64,000 nt of DNA from Nitrospirota bacterium. Lineage in GTDB: Bacteria; Nitrospirota; Nitrospiria; SBBL01; JAADHI01. A program made the position numbers and the translations under genes. The stretch is from the NCBI GenBank assembly GCA_029261165.1, contig JAJDBV010000023.1:1-64000 (forward strand). The letters run 5' to 3'. This document shows, one piece after another, positions 36,398 to 45,271 of this stretch; position 1 is the first letter of the stretch; each line of letters begins with the position of its first letter. The notes beneath the pieces were generated by a model. It worked only from the letters and a program-made list of their open reading frames with translations. It was not told where the DNA came from and searched no databases.

Positions 36398-37381
36398 ATG
36401 AAGAAGACGGGCTTTGTGACTCATCCCTTTTTTCTTCAACATGATACGGGACGAGGACATCCTGAAACAGCCCGCCGACTCACCGCCATAGGGAAACGCC
36501 TTTTTAGACAGGGTGCAGGGGGACCGGATGATACGAAGGAGCTTCGTACGCGATTGATGCGACTCTCCCCCTCGTCTCATCCAGAGCTCTCCCGTTGGAT
36601 CACAGAGAATCATCATCCATCATACTATCAATCTCTGAAAGACCAGATCCCGGAACAAGGCCACATTTACCTTGACCCGGATACCCCTTGTTCTTCCGAA
36701 TCTCTTGCGGCTGCAGAGATGGCGGTCTCGGGTGTTTTGACGGCGATTGATCGGGTCATGGATGGATCTGTTTCCAATGCATTTTGCGCTTTGAGGCCGC
36801 CGGGACACCATGCGGAGCCGGACCGCGCGATGGGGTTTTGCCTCTTTAACAATGTGGCTGTTGGGGCAAGGTATCTTCAGTTGAAGTACGGTCTGAAACG
36901 CATCCTCATTATTGATTGGGACGTCCATCACGGGAATGGGACCCAAAACAGCTTTTATTCCGATCCGACGATTTTTTATTTTAGCACGCATCAATATCCC
37001 TTCTATCCCGGAACAGGATCTGATCAGGAAAGGGGAGAAAAAGAGGGAGAAGGCTTCACGGTCAACAGCCCCCTTGTGGCCGGATCGGGGGATCTGGAGA
37101 TCCATACCGCATTTGAAAAGAAACTCATCCCTGCCGTCAAGGCTTTTGACCCTGACTTTATCCTCATCTCGGCGGGCTTCGATGCGCACAAAGATGACCC
37201 CCTGGCCGGCCTGGAGGTGACCGAGAGCGGTTTTTTTGAACTGACAAAGAGGGTCATGTCACTTGCGAATCAGCATTGTCATGGAAGGATTGTCTCCTGT
37301 CTGGAGGGGGGCTACCACCTCAATGCCCTGGCAAGATCCGTCCAAAGCCATCTGGAAGCACTTTCGCAGTCTCAGCCCTGA
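36398..37381 (+). CDS. Histone-deacetylase-family (acetoin-utilisation AcuC-like) deacetylase
   Basis: 327 residues covering a whole arginase/deacetylase fold. Zinc ligands are D175 and H177 in DWDVHHGNG and the aspartate in SAGFDAHKDDPL. RPPGHHAEPDRAMGFCLFNN holds the charge-relay histidines, and CLEGGYHL is the conserved end motif. Bacterial members remove acetyl groups from acetyl-CoA synthetase or polyamines; the substrate here is unknown. The gene starts 28 bases after the previous stop, so they may be co-transcribed. Confidence 0.9.
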   Translation: MKKTGFVTHPFFLQHDTGRGHPETARRLTAIGKRLFRQGAGGPDDTKELRTRLMRLSPSSHPELSRWITENHHPSYYQSLKDQIPEQGHIYLDPDTPCSSESLAAAEMAVSGVLTAIDRVMDGSVSNAFCALRPPGHHAEPDRAMGFCLFNNVAVGARYLQLKYGLKRILIIDWDVHHGNGTQNSFYSDPTIFYFSTHQYPFYPGTGSDQERGEKEGEGFTVNSPLVAGSGDLEIHTAFEKKLIPAVKAFDPDFILISAGFDAHKDDPLAGLEVTESGFFELTKRVMSLANQHCHGRIVSCLEGGYHLNALARSVQSHLEALSQSQP

Positions 37382-37433: not shown

Positions 37434-37497
37434 CCACCACTTGACTTGAAACCCTTTGTTATTGTTGTTTCTGAGGACCGAATTTCGTCTGTTTTTG

Positions 37498-38175
37498 ATG
37501 GTGGCCATTCGCGGAATAGCGCTTTCGAAGTCCTTTCATTATCATCAGGTACTCAATGAGATTTCCCTGGAGGTAAAAGAGGGGGAGTGTTATGCGCTTT
37601 TTGGGCCGAACGGCGCCGGAAAAACAACCCTCCTGAGGATATTCGCGACATTACACCGCCCCTCTTCCGGACGATTTGAGATCCTCGGTCGGGATGGTCT
37701 CGGGGACAGGGCGAAGATTCGCGAAGACCTCTTCCTGATCGGCCACGGATCATACCTGTATGACGATTTGAGTGTCGTTGAAAATATTCAGTTTGCGCTC
37801 GGCGTTCGCGGAGGACATCCGACGGATCATGAGATCAAGCTTGCACTCGACCGGGTGGGGATCGGCGCGTTTAGAAAATTAAAAAGCCGTCATTTGTCGG
37901 CTGGGATGAAAAAACGGCTCTCGATCGCGAAAACCCTCCTGATCCGCCCGAAGATCCTCCTCCTTGATGAAGCCTATGCCTCCCTTGATGAACGGGGCGT
38001 TGTGATGCTGAATGATTGCATCCGCGAGTTTGCGAAGGAGGGGTCGGCTATCCTGATGACCACACATGACCGATCCAGGACGGCAGAGGTGGCGCACCGG
38101 GCCGGGGTGATACAGCAAAGCGTACTGCAGGAAATAACCATTCAAGAGATGTTGGCGGCAGATGCACTTTTTTAA
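37498..38175 (+). CDS. ccmA: Haem-handling ABC transporter ATP-binding protein CcmA
   Basis: 225 residues from ATG 37498. Walker A FGPNGAGKTTLL, signature LSAGMKKRLSIAKTL, Walker B ILLLDEAYASLD and the switch histidine in LMTTHDRS are present. The LSAGMKKR form is typical of CcmA. CcmA works with CcmB and CcmC to release haem-loaded CcmE in System I cytochrome c maturation. A longer frame from TTG 37456 has no support. The end overlaps ccmB by 14 bases. Confidence 0.9.
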   Translation: MVAIRGIALSKSFHYHQVLNEISLEVKEGECYALFGPNGAGKTTLLRIFATLHRPSSGRFEILGRDGLGDRAKIREDLFLIGHGSYLYDDLSVVENIQFALGVRGGHPTDHEIKLALDRVGIGAFRKLKSRHLSAGMKKRLSIAKTLLIRPKILLLDEAYASLDERGVVMLNDCIREFAKEGSAILMTTHDRSRTAEVAHRAGVIQQSVLQEITIQEMLAADALF

Positions 38176-38839
38176 CACGATCCGTTGGATCGCATGGAAA
38201 GATCTCCTCAGCGAGGTTCGAAATCGAGAGAATATTTCCTCGATGTTTTTCTTTGCCCTCATTGTTATTTTTATCTTTAGTTTCAGTTTTTCTCTGGACC
38301 CGAGAACAGTACAGGAGGTGATGCCGGGGATTATCTGGGTTGCCTTTGGTTTTACGGCGATTATCGGCCTGGGAAAGTCCTTTCTAGCAGAGGTGCATAA
38401 TGACTGTATGGAATATTTTCAGATGTTGCCGGTTCCGAAGGGGGCCATTTATCTTGGGAAATTTATCGGCAACGTACTTTTCATGCTGATTGTCGAAACC
38501 ATACTGTTCCCTCTTTTTGTCCTCTTCTTTAATCTGGATGTGCTTGAAAAATTTCCACAATTTCTGTTAATATTCGGGGTTGCAACGGTTGGGCTGTCGG
38601 CACTGGGTACGCTATTCTCTGCCCTGACGGTTCAAGTCCGGGCGCGAGAAGTCATGTTCCCGATACTCCTGTTGCCGATGGCGGTCCCGATCTTTATCGG
38701 CGCAGTCGAGGCGACCCGGGGTGTTTTCAATGGTGACGCTTTCGCGCTCTACAGCCACTGGATTCAGTTATTGGTGGTTTTTGATGTCATCTTTGTGATT
38801 GTTTCTTTTTGGATCTTTGAGTTTATATTGGATTTTTGA
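38162..38839 (+). CDS. ccmB: Haem exporter membrane protein CcmB
   Basis: 225 residues with about six membrane helices. Typical CcmB sequence is seen: WIAWKDLLSEVRNRENISSM near the N-terminus, FTAIIGLGKSF, QMLPVPKGAIYLGKFIGN, and LLPMAVPIFIGAVEAT. It forms the membrane part of the CcmAB complex. Overlaps ccmA by 14 bases and ends two bases before ccmC. Confidence 0.93.
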   Translation: MHFFNTIRWIAWKDLLSEVRNRENISSMFFFALIVIFIFSFSFSLDPRTVQEVMPGIIWVAFGFTAIIGLGKSFLAEVHNDCMEYFQMLPVPKGAIYLGKFIGNVLFMLIVETILFPLFVLFFNLDVLEKFPQFLLIFGVATVGLSALGTLFSALTVQVRAREVMFPILLLPMAVPIFIGAVEATRGVFNGDAFALYSHWIQLLVVFDVIFVIVSFWIFEFILDF

Positions 38840-38841
38840 AT

Positions 38842-39555
38842 ATGATTCTAAACCGTTTCATCCGATGGCTCGGACGTTATGAAGGATGGTTTGGCGGGGG
38901 CGCGGCGCTTTGCATCGGCATTGGGCTCTACATGGGCCTGGTAACCTCTCCCCCCGATTATTATCAGGGCGAGGTTGTGCGGATCATGTATGTCCATGTC
39001 CCTTCTGCGAAAACCTCCCTGTTTGCCTATCTGGTTCTCTTTATCGGAAGTATCTGGTATCTCTGGAAACGAGATCCGGTCATCGACAACATGTGTCATG
39101 CCACCGCCGGGATCGCTCTTTTTTATGTGGGAACGGCCTTGCTCACCGGCTCGATCTGGGCCAAGCCCACCTGGAATACCTGGTGGACCTGGGATCCGCG
39201 CCTGACCTCCTTTGCCATCTTGTTTTTAACCCTGGTCGGATACCTGATGCTTAGAACCTTCCTGGACGATAAGGAAAAAGAAGCGACCTTTGCGGCGATA
39301 CTGGCAATCATCGGCTTCATCGATCTTCCCATCGTCTATTTCTCCGTGGAATGGTGGCGGACCTTGCACCAGCCGATGTCGATGTCGGTCCGGGGAATCA
39401 GTTTCGCACCCGAGATGCTCACTCCCCTCATCCTGATGTCAATCGGTTCTTCCCTGCTCTTTTCTTATATGCTCATGGTGCGGACCCAGATGCTCTATCT
39501 GGAGCGTCTGCTGGAAGCAAAGCAGGGCCGTCTGCTCAGCGAGACCCGTTTATGA
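38842..39555 (+). CDS. ccmC: Haem-delivery protein CcmC
   Basis: 237 residues from ATG 38842 (a TTG two codons upstream overlaps the ccmB stop). Six helices. The periplasmic haem-binding WWD motif is NTWWTWDPRLTS, and the two haem-ligand histidines are in MYVHVPSAKTS and WWRTLHQPMSM, as expected. CcmC presents haem to CcmE. Next comes the CcmE/CcmD-like fusion gene after ten bases. Confidence 0.95.
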   Translation: MILNRFIRWLGRYEGWFGGGAALCIGIGLYMGLVTSPPDYYQGEVVRIMYVHVPSAKTSLFAYLVLFIGSIWYLWKRDPVIDNMCHATAGIALFYVGTALLTGSIWAKPTWNTWWTWDPRLTSFAILFLTLVGYLMLRTFLDDKEKEATFAAILAIIGFIDLPIVYFSVEWWRTLHQPMSMSVRGISFAPEMLTPLILMSIGSSLLFSYMLMVRTQMLYLERLLEAKQGRLLSETRL

Positions 39556-39565
39556 GAGTGAGGCA

Positions 39566-40060
39566 ATGAAACGATTCTACCTGCGCTGGGGAGGCGTGTT
39601 GGTCATAGGTGTTATCATTTGTCTCTTTGGCCTGGCGCGATATCAAAGGGAGGTCAGTCACATTCCGATTGAAAAGTTTCTGGATGAGAAGCCGACTCGG
39701 GCCGTGCGCGTTCTGGGAATGGTTGTGGGCGGAAGTCTGAACCGGGGGGGGGCTGGAGAACCGATTCAATTCACACTTTCCGGTACAGGGGCGCAGGTTC
39801 CCGTCTATTATCAGGGAGAGGACCCGGAAAACTTGAGAGAGCTCAAAAAGCTGGTTATTTACGGACGATGGAATCCTGAGGAGCAGCGGATAGAGTCGGA
39901 GACAATCTTGGGCGTCCCCAATTACGGCTTTGTAAGCTGGGCTTATCTGGTGACGCTCATCCCGATGACCCTCTTTCTCTTTAATATGGAAAGAAAGGTT
40001 GCTTTGCTGTATATTATGATAAAAGAAGAGAAGGTTTATCAGTCGGAGGAAAGCGCTTGA
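39566..40060 (+). CDS. CcmE-like OB-fold protein with CcmD-like C-terminal tail
   Basis: 164 residues. Helix near 9-25, then an OB-fold-like region (RAVRVLGMVVGGSLNR, PIQFTLSGTGAQVPVYYQG, LVIYGRWN) that mirrors the CcmE next to it, but there is no His-x3-Tyr haem-attachment site. From about residue 120 the tail NYGFVSWAYLVTLIPMTLFL plus a basic/acidic stretch looks like CcmD, a small one-helix protein that normally sits between ccmC and ccmE, exactly this position. No separate ccmD is present. The fusion reading is by eye. GAGG lies just before the ATG; the stop overlaps the TTG start of ccmE. Confidence 0.8.
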   Translation: MKRFYLRWGGVLVIGVIICLFGLARYQREVSHIPIEKFLDEKPTRAVRVLGMVVGGSLNRGGAGEPIQFTLSGTGAQVPVYYQGEDPENLRELKKLVIYGRWNPEEQRIESETILGVPNYGFVSWAYLVTLIPMTLFLFNMERKVALLYIMIKEEKVYQSEESA

Positions 40061-40512
40061 GGTTGGGAAGGAAAACAGGGATCGTCTTTAGTATCTCCTT
40101 GATTGTCTTCGGTCTTGGATATCTGGCCTATGGTAATTTTGGGAAGAACCTCGTCTATTTTGTTACCCCCTCAGAGGTGGTGACTTTCGAATCGGATCGC
40201 TACGGCAGGAAGATCCGGGTGGCCGGTATGGTGGTTCAGGCCAGTTTAAAGGTCGTTCCGAACACCTTGAAGATTACCTTTGACCTGACGGATGGCGCAG
40301 AGACCATCCCGGTGGCTTTTGAAGGCGTGCCTCCCGACCTGTTCAAAGAAGGGACCGGGGCCGTTGTTGAAGGTTTCTGGGACGCGGACGGTGTTTTTCA
40401 CTCTCACATGATCATGGCAAAGCATGAAGAAGACTATATGCCGATTGAGATGAAAAACGCGGGAATGACACTCCCGACGAAAGGCATCATCAAGACCTTA
40501 CAGGTAAAATAG
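40057..40512 (+). CDS. ccmE: Cytochrome c maturation haem chaperone CcmE
   Basis: 151 residues, one N-terminal membrane anchor and a periplasmic OB fold (IRVAGMVVQASLKV, ITFDLTDGAETIPVAFEG, AVVEGFWDADGVF). The haem-binding histidine and its partner tyrosine are in AKHEEDYMP, the classic H-x3-Y. The start is TTG 40057, overlapping the previous stop, with GGAGGA seven bases upstream. CcmE carries haem from CcmABC to CcmFH. Confidence 0.95.
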   Translation: MRLGRKTGIVFSISLIVFGLGYLAYGNFGKNLVYFVTPSEVVTFESDRYGRKIRVAGMVVQASLKVVPNTLKITFDLTDGAETIPVAFEGVPPDLFKEGTGAVVEGFWDADGVFHSHMIMAKHEEDYMPIEMKNAGMTLPTKGIIKTLQVK

Positions 40513-40591: not shown

Positions 40592-42634
40592 ATGATTGTT
40601 GAAATTGGACATTATGCCGTGGTGACGGCATTGCTTTTATCTATGCTCGGGGTTGCCGCACCGATTATCGGTCTGAAGAGAAAGAACGCGGCCTGGGTCC
40701 AGGTTGGTCAACGGGCCCTTATCCTCACCTTCGTCCTGATCACGGTCGGAATGGTCGCCATGATTTATTCCTATCTGACCGAGGACTACTCCGTCAAATA
40801 TGTCTATGCCACTTCCAACAGCAAGCTCCCGATCTTCTACAAGATTGCAGGTCTCTGGGGAGGTCATGAAGGCTCTCTGCTTCTCTGGGCGTGGATTCTT
40901 GCCTTCTATTCCATGGCTGCGGCAACGCTCCATTGGAAAACACAGCCCGTAGTGATGCCTTATCTCATCCTGATGGAATCGATTGTGCTGTGTGGGTTTT
41001 TGCTCCTCATCCTCTTTCTCTCGAATCCCTTTGAGCGAATATTCCCGGCGCCACTCGACGGCAAGGATTTAAACCCCCTCCTGCAGGACCCCGCGATGGT
41101 CGTTCATCCCCCTTTGCTTTATTTGGGGTATGTTGGTCTGTCCATCCCATTCTCTTTTGCGATGGCCGCCCTTTTTTCCGGACGGCTGGGGGAGGAATGG
41201 GTCAAGGTGACCCAGCGATGGACCCTCTTTGCCTGGATTTGCCTGACCGCCGGTATTCTGATGGGGGGATATTGGGCTTACTATGAACTGGGCTGGGGAG
41301 GCTACTGGGGATGGGATCCGGTCGAAAATGCAGCCTTTATGCCGTGGTTGGTCGCGACCGCTTTTCTCCATTCGGTCATGGTTCAAGAGACCCGGAAGAT
41401 GTTCAAGGTCTGGAATCTTTTTCTCATTATATTGGCATTTTCGCTGTCGCTTATCGGGACCTTCCTGGTTCGAAGCGGTATCCTCTCATCGGTCCATTCC
41501 TTCGCGGCCGACCCGGGAAGGGGAGTCTTTATCCTTGGGTTTGTTGCGTTTATGCTCCTTCTCTCTTTCGGGACCCTCATCCTTAGATCGGCCAAGCTGA
41601 AGAGTTCGGTCACGATAGAATCAGTCGTTTCCCGGGAGGCAATTTTCCTGTTTAATAACCTCTTTTTCCTTGTGGCTCTGGTGACGGTTTTTATCGGAAC
41701 GCTGTATCCCCTCTTAATGGAGGTCTTGCAGTTTAACAAGGTTTCCGTCGGTCCCCCCTACTACAATGCGGTCTTCATGCCGGTGGCCCTGGGTCTGATC
41801 TTCCTGATGGGGATCGGCCCCTATATCCCCTGGCGAAAAACAACGGCCAAAAACATCAAAGAATTGTTCGGTCTTCCCCTCATGCTCGCATTCGGGGCGG
41901 GAGTCCTTTTGTTTATCTTCGGGATCCGGGAGGAGTACGCCCTGGCCAGCATGACGGTTGTTGCTTTTGTCGCTGCCGCGATTTTTATTGATTTCAGGAA
42001 GATCGCGTTATTTTGGGGGAAGCGGGATCGGGTCAATCCTTTTCTTGGATTTCTTTCGGCATACAGAAGGAACCCCAGACGGATCGCGGGGCTGATTACT
42101 CATGTCGGTGTCCTGGTCATGATAGTCGGTATTACCTTCTCGTCGCTCTACCAGACGGAAAAGATACTCATCATGAAGCCGGGGGATGAGGTGAGCCTCA
42201 AATCTTTTCAGCTGCGCATGGCAACACTACATGGTGCGGAAGGGGTCAATTGGGAGGGCAAGGAGGCCCTCTTTGATATCTACCAGGAGGACCGAATTGT
42301 CACCCAGATGCGCCCCCAGAAGCGGTTTTATACGGTTTCTCAGACACCCACCACGGAGACCGCCATTTATCAGACCAATATGGGTCACCTTTTCGTGACG
42401 ATACCCGAAGTTTCCCCTGACGGCACCTGGGCGCGCGTCCGTGTCTTGCACAACCCCCTGGTTCTTCTGGTCTGGTACGGTGGCGGGATTATGGGCATCG
42501 GGGGCTTTTTAAACATCTTCCGGAGGGATCGAAAGCGGTCCGTTGTTTCTGTCGCGTCCGGTGTCACCGCCAAGACCGCCCCTTCCCTGGCATCGGGGAG
42601 AGACGGGATCGTGGCACAGCGTTCGGAGAGCTAA
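40592..42634 (+). CDS. ccmF: Cytochrome c haem lyase subunit CcmF
   Basis: 680 residues, many membrane helices. Seen: GLWGGHEGSLLLWAWIL, DPAMVVHPPLLYLGYVG, the WWD motif GWGGYWGWDPVENAAFMPWL and FLVRSGILSSVHSFAADP. It accepts haem from CcmE and, with CcmH/I, attaches it to apocytochrome c in the periplasm. An 80-base gap separates it from ccmE. The last 45 residues after the final helix are less conserved and charged. Confidence 0.96.
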   Translation: MIVEIGHYAVVTALLLSMLGVAAPIIGLKRKNAAWVQVGQRALILTFVLITVGMVAMIYSYLTEDYSVKYVYATSNSKLPIFYKIAGLWGGHEGSLLLWAWILAFYSMAAATLHWKTQPVVMPYLILMESIVLCGFLLLILFLSNPFERIFPAPLDGKDLNPLLQDPAMVVHPPLLYLGYVGLSIPFSFAMAALFSGRLGEEWVKVTQRWTLFAWICLTAGILMGGYWAYYELGWGGYWGWDPVENAAFMPWLVATAFLHSVMVQETRKMFKVWNLFLIILAFSLSLIGTFLVRSGILSSVHSFAADPGRGVFILGFVAFMLLLSFGTLILRSAKLKSSVTIESVVSREAIFLFNNLFFLVALVTVFIGTLYPLLMEVLQFNKVSVGPPYYNAVFMPVALGLIFLMGIGPYIPWRKTTAKNIKELFGLPLMLAFGAGVLLFIFGIREEYALASMTVVAFVAAAIFIDFRKIALFWGKRDRVNPFLGFLSAYRRNPRRIAGLITHVGVLVMIVGITFSSLYQTEKILIMKPGDEVSLKSFQLRMATLHGAEGVNWEGKEALFDIYQEDRIVTQMRPQKRFYTVSQTPTTETAIYQTNMGHLFVTIPEVSPDGTWARVRVLHNPLVLLVWYGGGIMGIGGFLNIFRRDRKRSVVSVASGVTAKTAPSLASGRDGIVAQRSES

Positions 42635-42637
42635 GAG

Positions 42638-43216
42638 ATGGCTGCGTTTAAAGGGTGGCATGTCCTCCTTCTTGTGGGGACTCTGGGCCTTTTGGCTATT
42701 TTCTACCAGGGATTGTGGGGAAATCCAAACTTCATCCCGCCGGTGATCGTAGAGACACCGGCCCCCGAAGTAACGGGGCCCGACCTCTACAAGGGGACCG
42801 CCGTTTCCCTCAGCGATTTTAGAGGGAAGGTGATTCTCGTTAATTTCTGGGCATCGTGGTGTCAGGAATGCAAACTGGAGCACAAATCGCTCCTTGCCAT
42901 CAAGAAGCATTATGAGGATGATCCGAATTTCGCCATGTTTGGCATCAATTACCAGGATAAGGATCATCTGGCTAAGGACTATCTTCAGGTTCATGGAAAC
43001 AATTTCGATCATATCCGGGATCTTGACGGCAGGATATCCATTGATTTTGGTGTGTATGGTGTGCCGGAAACCTTTGTCATCGACCAGGAAGGGATTATCC
43101 GCCACAAACAGATCGGGCCGATTATCGGAGATGTCTATTCAGATATGATTGAGAAGGTCATCGATCCTCTGCTCAATGGGACGGCGGGGATTGTTGGGAC
43201 GGTGTCTTCATCATGA
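42638..43216 (+). CDS. ccmG: CcmG/DsbE-type thiol-disulfide oxidoreductase
   Basis: 192 residues. One N-terminal membrane anchor, then a periplasmic thioredoxin domain with active site WASWCQECKLEH and the cis-proline motif GVPETFVID, characteristic of CcmG. It reduces the disulfide of apocytochrome or CcmH so haem can attach. The CQEC centre is less usual than CxPC. Four bases after ccmF, and its stop overlaps ccmH. Confidence 0.92.
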   Translation: MAAFKGWHVLLLVGTLGLLAIFYQGLWGNPNFIPPVIVETPAPEVTGPDLYKGTAVSLSDFRGKVILVNFWASWCQECKLEHKSLLAIKKHYEDDPNFAMFGINYQDKDHLAKDYLQVHGNNFDHIRDLDGRISIDFGVYGVPETFVIDQEGIIRHKQIGPIIGDVYSDMIEKVIDPLLNGTAGIVGTVSSS

Positions 43217-43686
43217 GAAAGTCCTTTGTACTGATCCTATTTTTCTTGATTGCTTTTTCCGGCGTCTCTTTCGCGGAGCCACAGGATGACGAGGTTTTAC
43301 AGGGCCGGATCAAGGAGGTTTCAAAGACGCTTCGCTGCGCGGTCTGCCAGTCGGAATCGGTCTGGGAATCGAATGCCACACTCGCGATTCAGATGCGTAA
43401 GATCGTCCGGGAGCGGCTCATTGCCGGAGAATCTCCAGAAGAAATTCGGGCCTACTTTGTCGGTCGGTATGGCGACTATATCCTACTAAAACCCAGAGTG
43501 CGCGGCCTGAACCGGCTCCTTTGGTTTGGCCCTTTTATTCTCTTGTCCTTTGGAGGGTTTTTTCTTTACAAAACCTTGCGCCGATGGGCGTCAAAACCTG
43601 CACGAACTGAGCCTGTGGCATTCTCTCCCATTGATGATGCCCACCGAAGACGGATCGAAGAAGAGTTGCGTTCTTATAATGAATAG
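43213..43686 (+). CDS. ccmH: Cytochrome c maturation protein CcmH (CycL)
   Basis: 157 residues. Signal peptide, then a three-helix redox domain with LRCAVCQSESVWESNA, the RCxxC site that handles apocytochrome cysteines. FVGRYGDYILLKPRV is conserved, and a C-terminal membrane helix (LLWFGPFILLSFGGFFLY) anchors it. ATGA overlap with ccmG. Partner of CcmF and CcmI. Confidence 0.95.
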   Translation: MRKSFVLILFFLIAFSGVSFAEPQDDEVLQGRIKEVSKTLRCAVCQSESVWESNATLAIQMRKIVRERLIAGESPEEIRAYFVGRYGDYILLKPRVRGLNRLLWFGPFILLSFGGFFLYKTLRRWASKPARTEPVAFSPIDDAHRRRIEEELRSYNE

Positions 43687-43699
43687 GTCACGATAAGAG

Positions 43700-44629
43700 A
43701 TGTTCCCTGCTATAATTACATTCATGCTTCTGGGGGTTGTCGCGATGCTCGCCATGCCCCTAATCCGAAGATCGGCGAACCCGCTGCTTGTGGGCAATGA
43801 GGCCGATATTGACGAAGAACGGGTGAATCTGGACATCGAGCGGCAGACCCTTCTTCGAACGCTTTCAGAACTAGAGGTCAATTACTCACAGGGAAAGGTC
43901 TCTCTCGGTGACTATGAACGCCTGAAACTGGGCTATGAGCATCGCCTTGTAAACATTCTTGACCGTTTGGATGCATTTTCCCGGACGGGTAAAATTACTC
44001 AAAAAAAGAAGAAGTCCCGAGGGCCTTCCTCCAATAAAGGACATTGGCTCGCCATTGGGATGATCGGACTCCTTGTCGCGGCCGGTTCGCCCGGGATCTA
44101 TGAGCTGGTTTATTGGAAATTTGACCGAGACGCGACCTCAGGCGGAGGTGTTCCGGCGTCCCAACAAATGCCCCCGATTGATCCGGTGGCTATGGTTGCG
44201 CGTCTCGAAAAGCGCCTTAAGGAAAATCCGGATGATCTTCAAGGACAGGTGATGATCGGCCGGTCCTATGGGGCATTGGAACGTTGGGAAGATGCAAAAG
44301 CCGCATGGCGGAAGGTCCTTGAACTCGACCCAAGGCATTATATAGCACATTTTCAGATGGGAGAAATCCTGCTCCGGACCTCGGCCCTTACCGATCCCCG
44401 TGATGCGGAAGAGGCACTGTTTCACATTGATAAGGCGCTTATCGTGACCCCTCAGGATGCCAGTGTTCTCTGGTTAAAGGGCTGGTCTCTGGTCGCCCTG
44501 GGTCGAACCTTTGAGGCGGACGAAATCTGGACGGAGGCCTTTCAATATATTCCCCAGGGGACAGAAGAATCGGAGACGGTCAAGAAGGCCTTGCAGAATC
44601 TCCGGGCGGGGAAATTTCCCTCGTCATAG
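43700..44629 (+). CDS. ccmI: CcmI-like apocytochrome chaperone with TPRs
   Basis: 309 residues. A first membrane helix (about 4-22), a cytoplasmic coiled region (NLDIERQTLLRTLSELEVNY), a second helix (about 114-131), then periplasmic tetratricopeptide repeats (DLQGQVMIGRSYGALERWED, HYIAHFQMGEILLRTSAL). This is the CcmI/CycH layout, which binds the C-terminus of apocytochromes. Short linker of 13 bases after ccmH. Confidence 0.9.
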   Translation: MFPAIITFMLLGVVAMLAMPLIRRSANPLLVGNEADIDEERVNLDIERQTLLRTLSELEVNYSQGKVSLGDYERLKLGYEHRLVNILDRLDAFSRTGKITQKKKKSRGPSSNKGHWLAIGMIGLLVAAGSPGIYELVYWKFDRDATSGGGVPASQQMPPIDPVAMVARLEKRLKENPDDLQGQVMIGRSYGALERWEDAKAAWRKVLELDPRHYIAHFQMGEILLRTSALTDPRDAEEALFHIDKALIVTPQDASVLWLKGWSLVALGRTFEADEIWTEAFQYIPQGTEESETVKKALQNLRAGKFPSS

Positions 44630-44641
44630 AGAGGTCCAAGA

Positions 44642-45271
44642 GTGATTGAATTACCTTCCCGGCGAGCTTCGGTGGGGTTCTTCCTCAGGTTTGCCTACTG
44701 TTTTCTCATTATTCTGATATCCTCGTTCCAGGCCGCCTGCACCGAGAAGAAGTTTGAGCCGGAGAAGAAAGCGGTACCCTTGAAGACGGGCATAGAGGTC
44801 GGCAATCTTGCCCCGGATTTTAATATCAAGAACCTGGGGGGGGGGAGCGCATCGCTCTCGGACTATCGGGGAAAGGTTGTTCTTGTTAATTTCTGGGCAA
44901 CCTGGTGCGGACCCTGCAAGGCAGAAATGCCGTCGATGGAGGCACTTTATCGAAGCCATGGGAGAGACGACTTCGAGATTCTGGCCGTTTCGATTGATCT
45001 CGGAGACGAGACCCCGGTTCGCTCATTCGTGGAAGATTTTGGTTTTACATTTCCAATCCTGCTCGATAGCCAATTTGACGTCAACGATCTTTTCCAGGTC
45101 CGGGTTGTGCCGACCAGCATTGTCATCGACCGCAATGGGGTGGTGACGGATCGTTTGTTGGGAGCAAAGGACTGGAACGATCCGGACGCGCAGGCGTTTG
45201 TGAAGGAGTTGATCCAGCGCCCTCATGAACAAATCAGTCAATCAGGCGTAGGTGCTAACAAGAAAGGGTAA
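44642..45271 (+). CDS. TlpA-type thioredoxin, probable lipoprotein
   Basis: 209 residues from GTG 44642 with GAGAGG upstream. N-terminal hydrophobic segment ends SSFQAAC, a possible lipobox. Thioredoxin fold with active site NFWATWCGPCKAEM and VVPTSIVIDRNG. It is the second membrane-tethered thioredoxin in this locus, after CcmG; the WCGPC centre suggests a reductant of wider use. It would take electrons from CcdA, encoded next after repeat R6. Confidence 0.9.
   Translation: MIELPSRRASVGFFLRFAYCFLIILISSFQAACTEKKFEPEKKAVPLKTGIEVGNLAPDFNIKNLGGGSASLSDYRGKVVLVNFWATWCGPCKAEMPSMEALYRSHGRDDFEILAVSIDLGDETPVRSFVEDFGFTFPILLDSQFDVNDLFQVRVVPTSIVIDRNGVVTDRLLGAKDWNDPDAQAFVKELIQRPHEQISQSGVGANKKG

Follow-up and report, generated by a model that had tools for sequence, protein, structure and literature searches.

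A System I ccm operon from a Nitrospirota bacterium raises the question of what acts as CcmD when the slot between ccmC and ccmE holds the gene for a 164-residue protein that resembles CcmE. The operon lies on the forward strand of a 64-kb window, by which is meant the whole stretch of DNA that was analysed, and it runs ccmABC, the gene in question, ccmEFGH and a ccmI-like gene; the order in E. coli is identical, with ccmD in the slot of the present gene. The genes ccmA (37456-38175, start not refined), ccmB (38162-38839) and ccmC (38836-39555) are followed after a gap of 10 bp by the gene in question (39566-40060, ATG start), the stop of which overlaps the start of ccmE proper (40057-40512) in the 4 bp TTGA (40057-40060), with GGAGG just 5' of the ccmE start. 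The operon continues with ccmF (40592-42634), the DsbE-like ccmG (42638-43216), ccmH (43213-43686) and the gene for a ccmI-like TPR protein (43700-44629). An earlier note on this DNA had put the gene in the CcmD position, which the coordinates bear out, and the same place is found in the 38 loci read. A putative histone-deacetylase-like gene of the acetoin utilisation type (36398-37381) lies just upstream of ccmA, and a second thioredoxin-fold gene, TlpA/ResA-like, follows the operon (44642-45271), besides ccmG.

The role of CcmD itself is unsettled. It contacts CcmC and CcmE and is required for release of haem-loaded CcmE (PMC3601427), and it has an N-out/C-in topology with a tail that bonds CcmC (PMC10457321). 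In a modelled CcmA2B2CDE complex, the His130/Tyr134 loop of CcmE reaches the site of the CcmC histidines and CcmD Tyr17 (PMC8975832). CcmD can also touch haem: E. coli CcmD with position 17 changed to Cys gives a haem cross-link, and a CcmE-CcmD complex has been observed with tagged CcmD (PMC12077264). The protein described here links two partners whose hand-over step is the least understood, and a literature search found no paper on a CcmE-CcmD fusion.

The first part of the fusion is built like CcmE (PF03100; E. coli, PDB 1sr3 and 8ce8 chain E), with which it has in common an N-terminal anchor and a periplasmic OB domain. The anchor is a membrane helix at about residues 9-26 (39590-39643), with R7 and Y26 invariant, and the match to the CcmE profile begins within it. 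The OB domain follows at about residues 40-116 (39683-39913); residues 41-115 match Pfam CcmE with 42.3 bits (E = 1e-10), over the cut-off of 24.6, and the OB part is 31% identical to the neighbouring CcmE over 68 residues. The NCBIfam equivalog cut-off for CcmE is missed by the fusion (best 33.6 bits versus 152), and the true CcmE of the window falls narrowly under its own nearest NCBIfam cut-off (119.5 versus 126). Structure prediction of the protein alone by AlphaFold2, from a four-row alignment of the window fusion, its relative at locus L001 and two CcmEs, gives a five-stranded OB barrel flanked by two long helices, with middling confidence (mean pLDDT 70.5, pTM 0.48). Among PDB chains, this model is closest to E. 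coli CcmE (8ce8_E, E = 2.9e-6), followed by 1sr3 and 1lm0; 1j6q and 2kct, both CcmE, are also among the matches. A profile of the fusion family recovers the same CcmE chains by sequence (6.9e-10). The OB fold like that of CcmE, proposed earlier from the letters of the DNA, is therefore upheld.

The last part, at about residues 117-164 (39914-40057), is of another kind. It reads P-N-Y-G-F-...-A-Y-..., so that N119-Y120-x-F122...A126-Y127 belongs to a membrane helix, and a charged tail follows that is predicted to be cytoplasmic. Sequence and model both fit an N-out/C-in helix, such that the whole protein would have two helices and the added domain. M141 and Y158 are invariant, and position 120 is Tyr in 40 of 42 homologues and Phe in the other 2. 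Like the fusion, CcmD (PF04995; E. coli, PDB 7f04 and 8ce8 chain D) occupies the ccmC-ccmE slot and ends in such a helix and tail, but it has 37-100 residues, and in the fusion an extra membrane helix and the OB domain replace its short periplasmic start.

In direct comparison with CcmD, the window tail scores 11.8 bits against CcmD_alt (PF20077), under the cut-off, and fusion tails never reach the Pfam CcmD cut-off (best 13-16 bits versus 23.5-25.6); nearby stand-alone CcmD-like proteins likewise fail the curated CcmD cut-offs. Searched against the PDB, the tail gives no match to E. coli CcmD, whereas a conventional Nitrospirota CcmD does. N-Y-x-F can be aligned over G-G-Y17-A-F-F of E. coli CcmD, in a register uncertain by one residue.

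Related ccm operons provide the link. In f21, the closest ccm lineage apart from that of the fusion (CcmC about 50% identical), a stand-alone protein of 53-55 residues, VKSNYEFIAAAYGATAV, fills the slot, and its SNYEFIAAAY compares with PNYGFITAAY in the fusion tail. In a further group (f27/33/34/36/45), a stand-alone protein like MENWGYLVGAYT is in the slot at 8 of 8 loci read. Profile-profile comparison matches the fusion tails to the f21 proteins at 94.7% (E = 6e-8) and to those of the further group at 83.8% (E = 8e-6). Controls with eight further membrane segments of these operons reach at most 0.63%, and none of 100 column-shuffled tails with the hydrophobic block kept attains either score. 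A profile of the tail only finds the stand-alone ORF as the sole match at E<=1 in 3 of 3 f21 genomes. In the reverse direction, a profile of the small stand-alone CcmDs only ranks the fusion tail first in many fusion genomes (G168, 1.6e-5; G023, 5e-4), although in the genome of the window it does not recover the tail at E<=1. Profile-profile comparison of the fusion tail with classical Nitrospira-type CcmD does not rise above background (0.24%), and the link to CcmD therefore runs via the intermediate stand-alone proteins, themselves named CcmD from position and weak similarity. The CcmD-like helix and tail noticed earlier are thus homologous to the stand-alone CcmDs of related ccm operons.

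Small stand-alone proteins of this sort follow ccmC in several Nitrospirota families (L059-L069). They share with the fusion the place after ccmC and the helix motif N-Y/W-x-F/Y-(x)3-A-Y, but have only 46-55 residues and no OB domain, and they too lie under the Pfam CcmD cut-off. Therefore, CcmD looks absent from those genomes and is probably present.

The two parts of the fusion meet where CcmE would bind haem. The second membrane helix of the fusion replaces the C-terminal loop of CcmE, and the [H/C]-x-x-x-Y of haem attachment is missing from all 42 aligned fusion homologues, as the earlier note had seen for this one. In contrast, H-x-x-x-Y is in all 41 partner CcmEs and in all 22 other Nitrospirota CcmEs compared; the true CcmE encoded next door in the window retains the haem His in AKHEEDY. 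F37, F103, H130 and Y134, four of the haem-platform positions of E. coli CcmE, have all lost their equivalents: in a profile alignment to E. coli CcmE, F37 becomes Ser, Thr or Ala and F103 becomes Leu, and the fusions have no His or Tyr in the H-x-x-x-Y register of H130 and Y134. The glycine-rich E-G-x-G loop of CcmE is E-L-K-T/I/V in the fusions. R91, which with K94 is invariant among the fusions, was considered as the counterpart of F103 and rejected, as in the profile alignment F103 is matched by L90, and R91 falls on R104. Since the periplasmic start of CcmD replaces the haem-binding loop, the OB domain should be unable to hold haem in the manner of CcmE.

A second haem chaperone could nonetheless be envisaged, in which haem is bound non-covalently by the OB domain, for instance with Tyr120 or residues of CcmC, and is passed on from CcmC to the His of CcmE. 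The retained CcmE fold speaks for such a relay, as does the near-constant aromatic residue at position 120, close to CcmD Tyr17, the position at which a Cys cross-links haem (PMC12077264). However, these four platform positions are replaced and no His or Cys is invariant anywhere in the fusion alignment, which makes this reading unlikely.

The distribution of the fusion was surveyed in 396 Nitrospirota genomes, with a full-length match at E<=1e-20. The fusion is in 49, which answers the earlier suggestion to look for it in related genomes and rules out an assembly artefact; ccmC is in 135, and conventional CcmD (PF04995 over cut-off) in 66. No genome has both the fusion and conventional CcmD, a lack of overlap among the 135 ccmC genomes with a chance of 6e-21 if the two were independent, that is, ignoring relatedness. 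The 135 divide into 49 with a CcmC at least 64% identical to that of the window, 3 of f21, 66 with conventional CcmD, 16 of the f33 group and 1 with a ccmC fragment only, and the first 49 are exactly the fusion genomes. Because the fusion tracks one CcmC lineage, its complementarity with CcmD stems both from common descent and from substitution, and mutual exclusion that follows ccm lineages represents fewer independent events than the genome counts suggest. Nitrospirota have at least three ccm lineages, with CcmC at least 64%, about 50% and 34-41% identical to that of the window, and each of them has one or more CcmD forms of its own. The fusion gene directly follows ccmC in all 49 genomes, by loci read or otherwise by coordinates, and ccmE comes next, or behind an insert, wherever the stretch read extends far enough. 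A separate CcmD, the absence of which the earlier reading depended on, was not found in the genome of the window (95% complete) by PF04995, CcmD_alt or the small-CcmD profile of the phylum.

The fusion occurs in two classes, f23 belonging to a different class from the others. When the fusions are placed in a tree together with the partner CcmEs, they all group in one clade (100/100) separate from all CcmEs, which indicates that the fusion arose once and mostly descended vertically. The joining branches are long, and neither the root nor, hence, the CcmE of the same lineage as donor is fixed by this tree. A contig scan for near-exact peptides only gave one relative, also from Nitrospirota (a MAG, isolate OFTM308), and a plasmid search gave matches to the CcmE region only and no fusion.

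These results bear on whether the protein is, as first proposed, a CcmE paralogue that took over the role of CcmD. In one form of this idea, a CcmE without its His acquired an unrelated second membrane helix, the likeness to CcmD arose by convergence, and CcmD is dispensable to these bacteria, as it is to archaea. The sub-threshold CcmD scores would fit, as would the formation of holo-CcmE in archaea without CcmD (PMC9084895). Against it, the profile and reciprocal searches with their controls tie the tail to stand-alone CcmDs, the gene is in the ccmD position and mutually exclusive with ccmD, and the tail is better conserved than the OB domain (mean identity 60%, the best-conserved part, versus 43%), so that this origin is quite improbable. 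Homology of the tail to the stand-alone CcmDs of related ccm operons instead argues for a CcmD that gained a CcmE-derived domain in front, and the paralogue interpretation is revised to that extent. A decaying, functionless duplicate of ccmE might account for evolution faster than that of the partner CcmE (mean pairwise identity 47% versus 68%, with longer branches in the tree), but for practical purposes it is refuted by conservation, with the reading frame kept open at its usual site in 49 genomes of two classes, 14 invariant residues across 18 diverse sequences and a non-CcmE tail as the most conserved part.

The fusion protein is very probably a CcmD. The gene as a whole is likely to encode the D subunit of CcmABCD, which would carry a CcmE mimic without haem at the site of CcmC-CcmE hand-over. 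In such an arrangement, the last 48 or so residues would be the CcmD, with an N-out/C-in membrane helix and charged cytoplasmic tail bound on CcmC, with which the fusion presumably assembles; in front, the CcmE-derived anchor and OB domain would be joined so that the periplasmic start of CcmD supplants the haem-binding loop. With the start of CcmD in place of the His130/Tyr134 loop, the OB domain should occupy the place of docked CcmE without being able to take haem. By analogy with E. coli CcmD, the fusion would release haem-loaded CcmE. That the OB domain itself acts at the hand-over, in docking or release, has somewhat less than an even chance.

If it does so, the OB domain would be tethered above CcmC, at the place to which real CcmE has to dock for loading. 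As a permanently attached, haem-free mimic it would most likely shape the hand-over: before loading it would cover or orient the CcmC site, and after ATP hydrolysis it would help displace haem-loaded CcmE, promoting exchange of real CcmE. In a bolder reading, a haem-less copy of CcmE would permanently fill the CcmE dock on CcmC as a dummy chaperone and control the loading and ejection of the real one, and the role of CcmD would be one of competition or gating; this proposal is possible, though the odds are against it.

A CcmD joined to a haem-stripped CcmE domain exactly at the haem loop of CcmE is evidence that both act at one site, and the fusion offers a stable handle for structural trapping of the CcmD-CcmE state. 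Joined Ccm subunits have a precedent in the CcmH-CcmI fusion of E. coli (PMC3601427), which differs in that it concerns other subunits, belongs to the lyase module and has lost no catalytic residue. The fusion occurs in a large part of the phylum Nitrospirota. Annotation can be corrected: the gene scores as CcmE, and its genomes appear to be without CcmD.

Two further observations concern the placing of ccmE. In f33-type genomes (L062-L069), ccmE is apart from ccmC-ccmD, usually about 4-5 kb off and, by coordinates, beyond ccmAB. Some f13 genomes have 1-2 kb of extra DNA between the fusion and ccmE (L074:2157-3187, L075:1789-3588), and the insert of L074 contains an ORF that by eye resembles a GIY-YIG nuclease.
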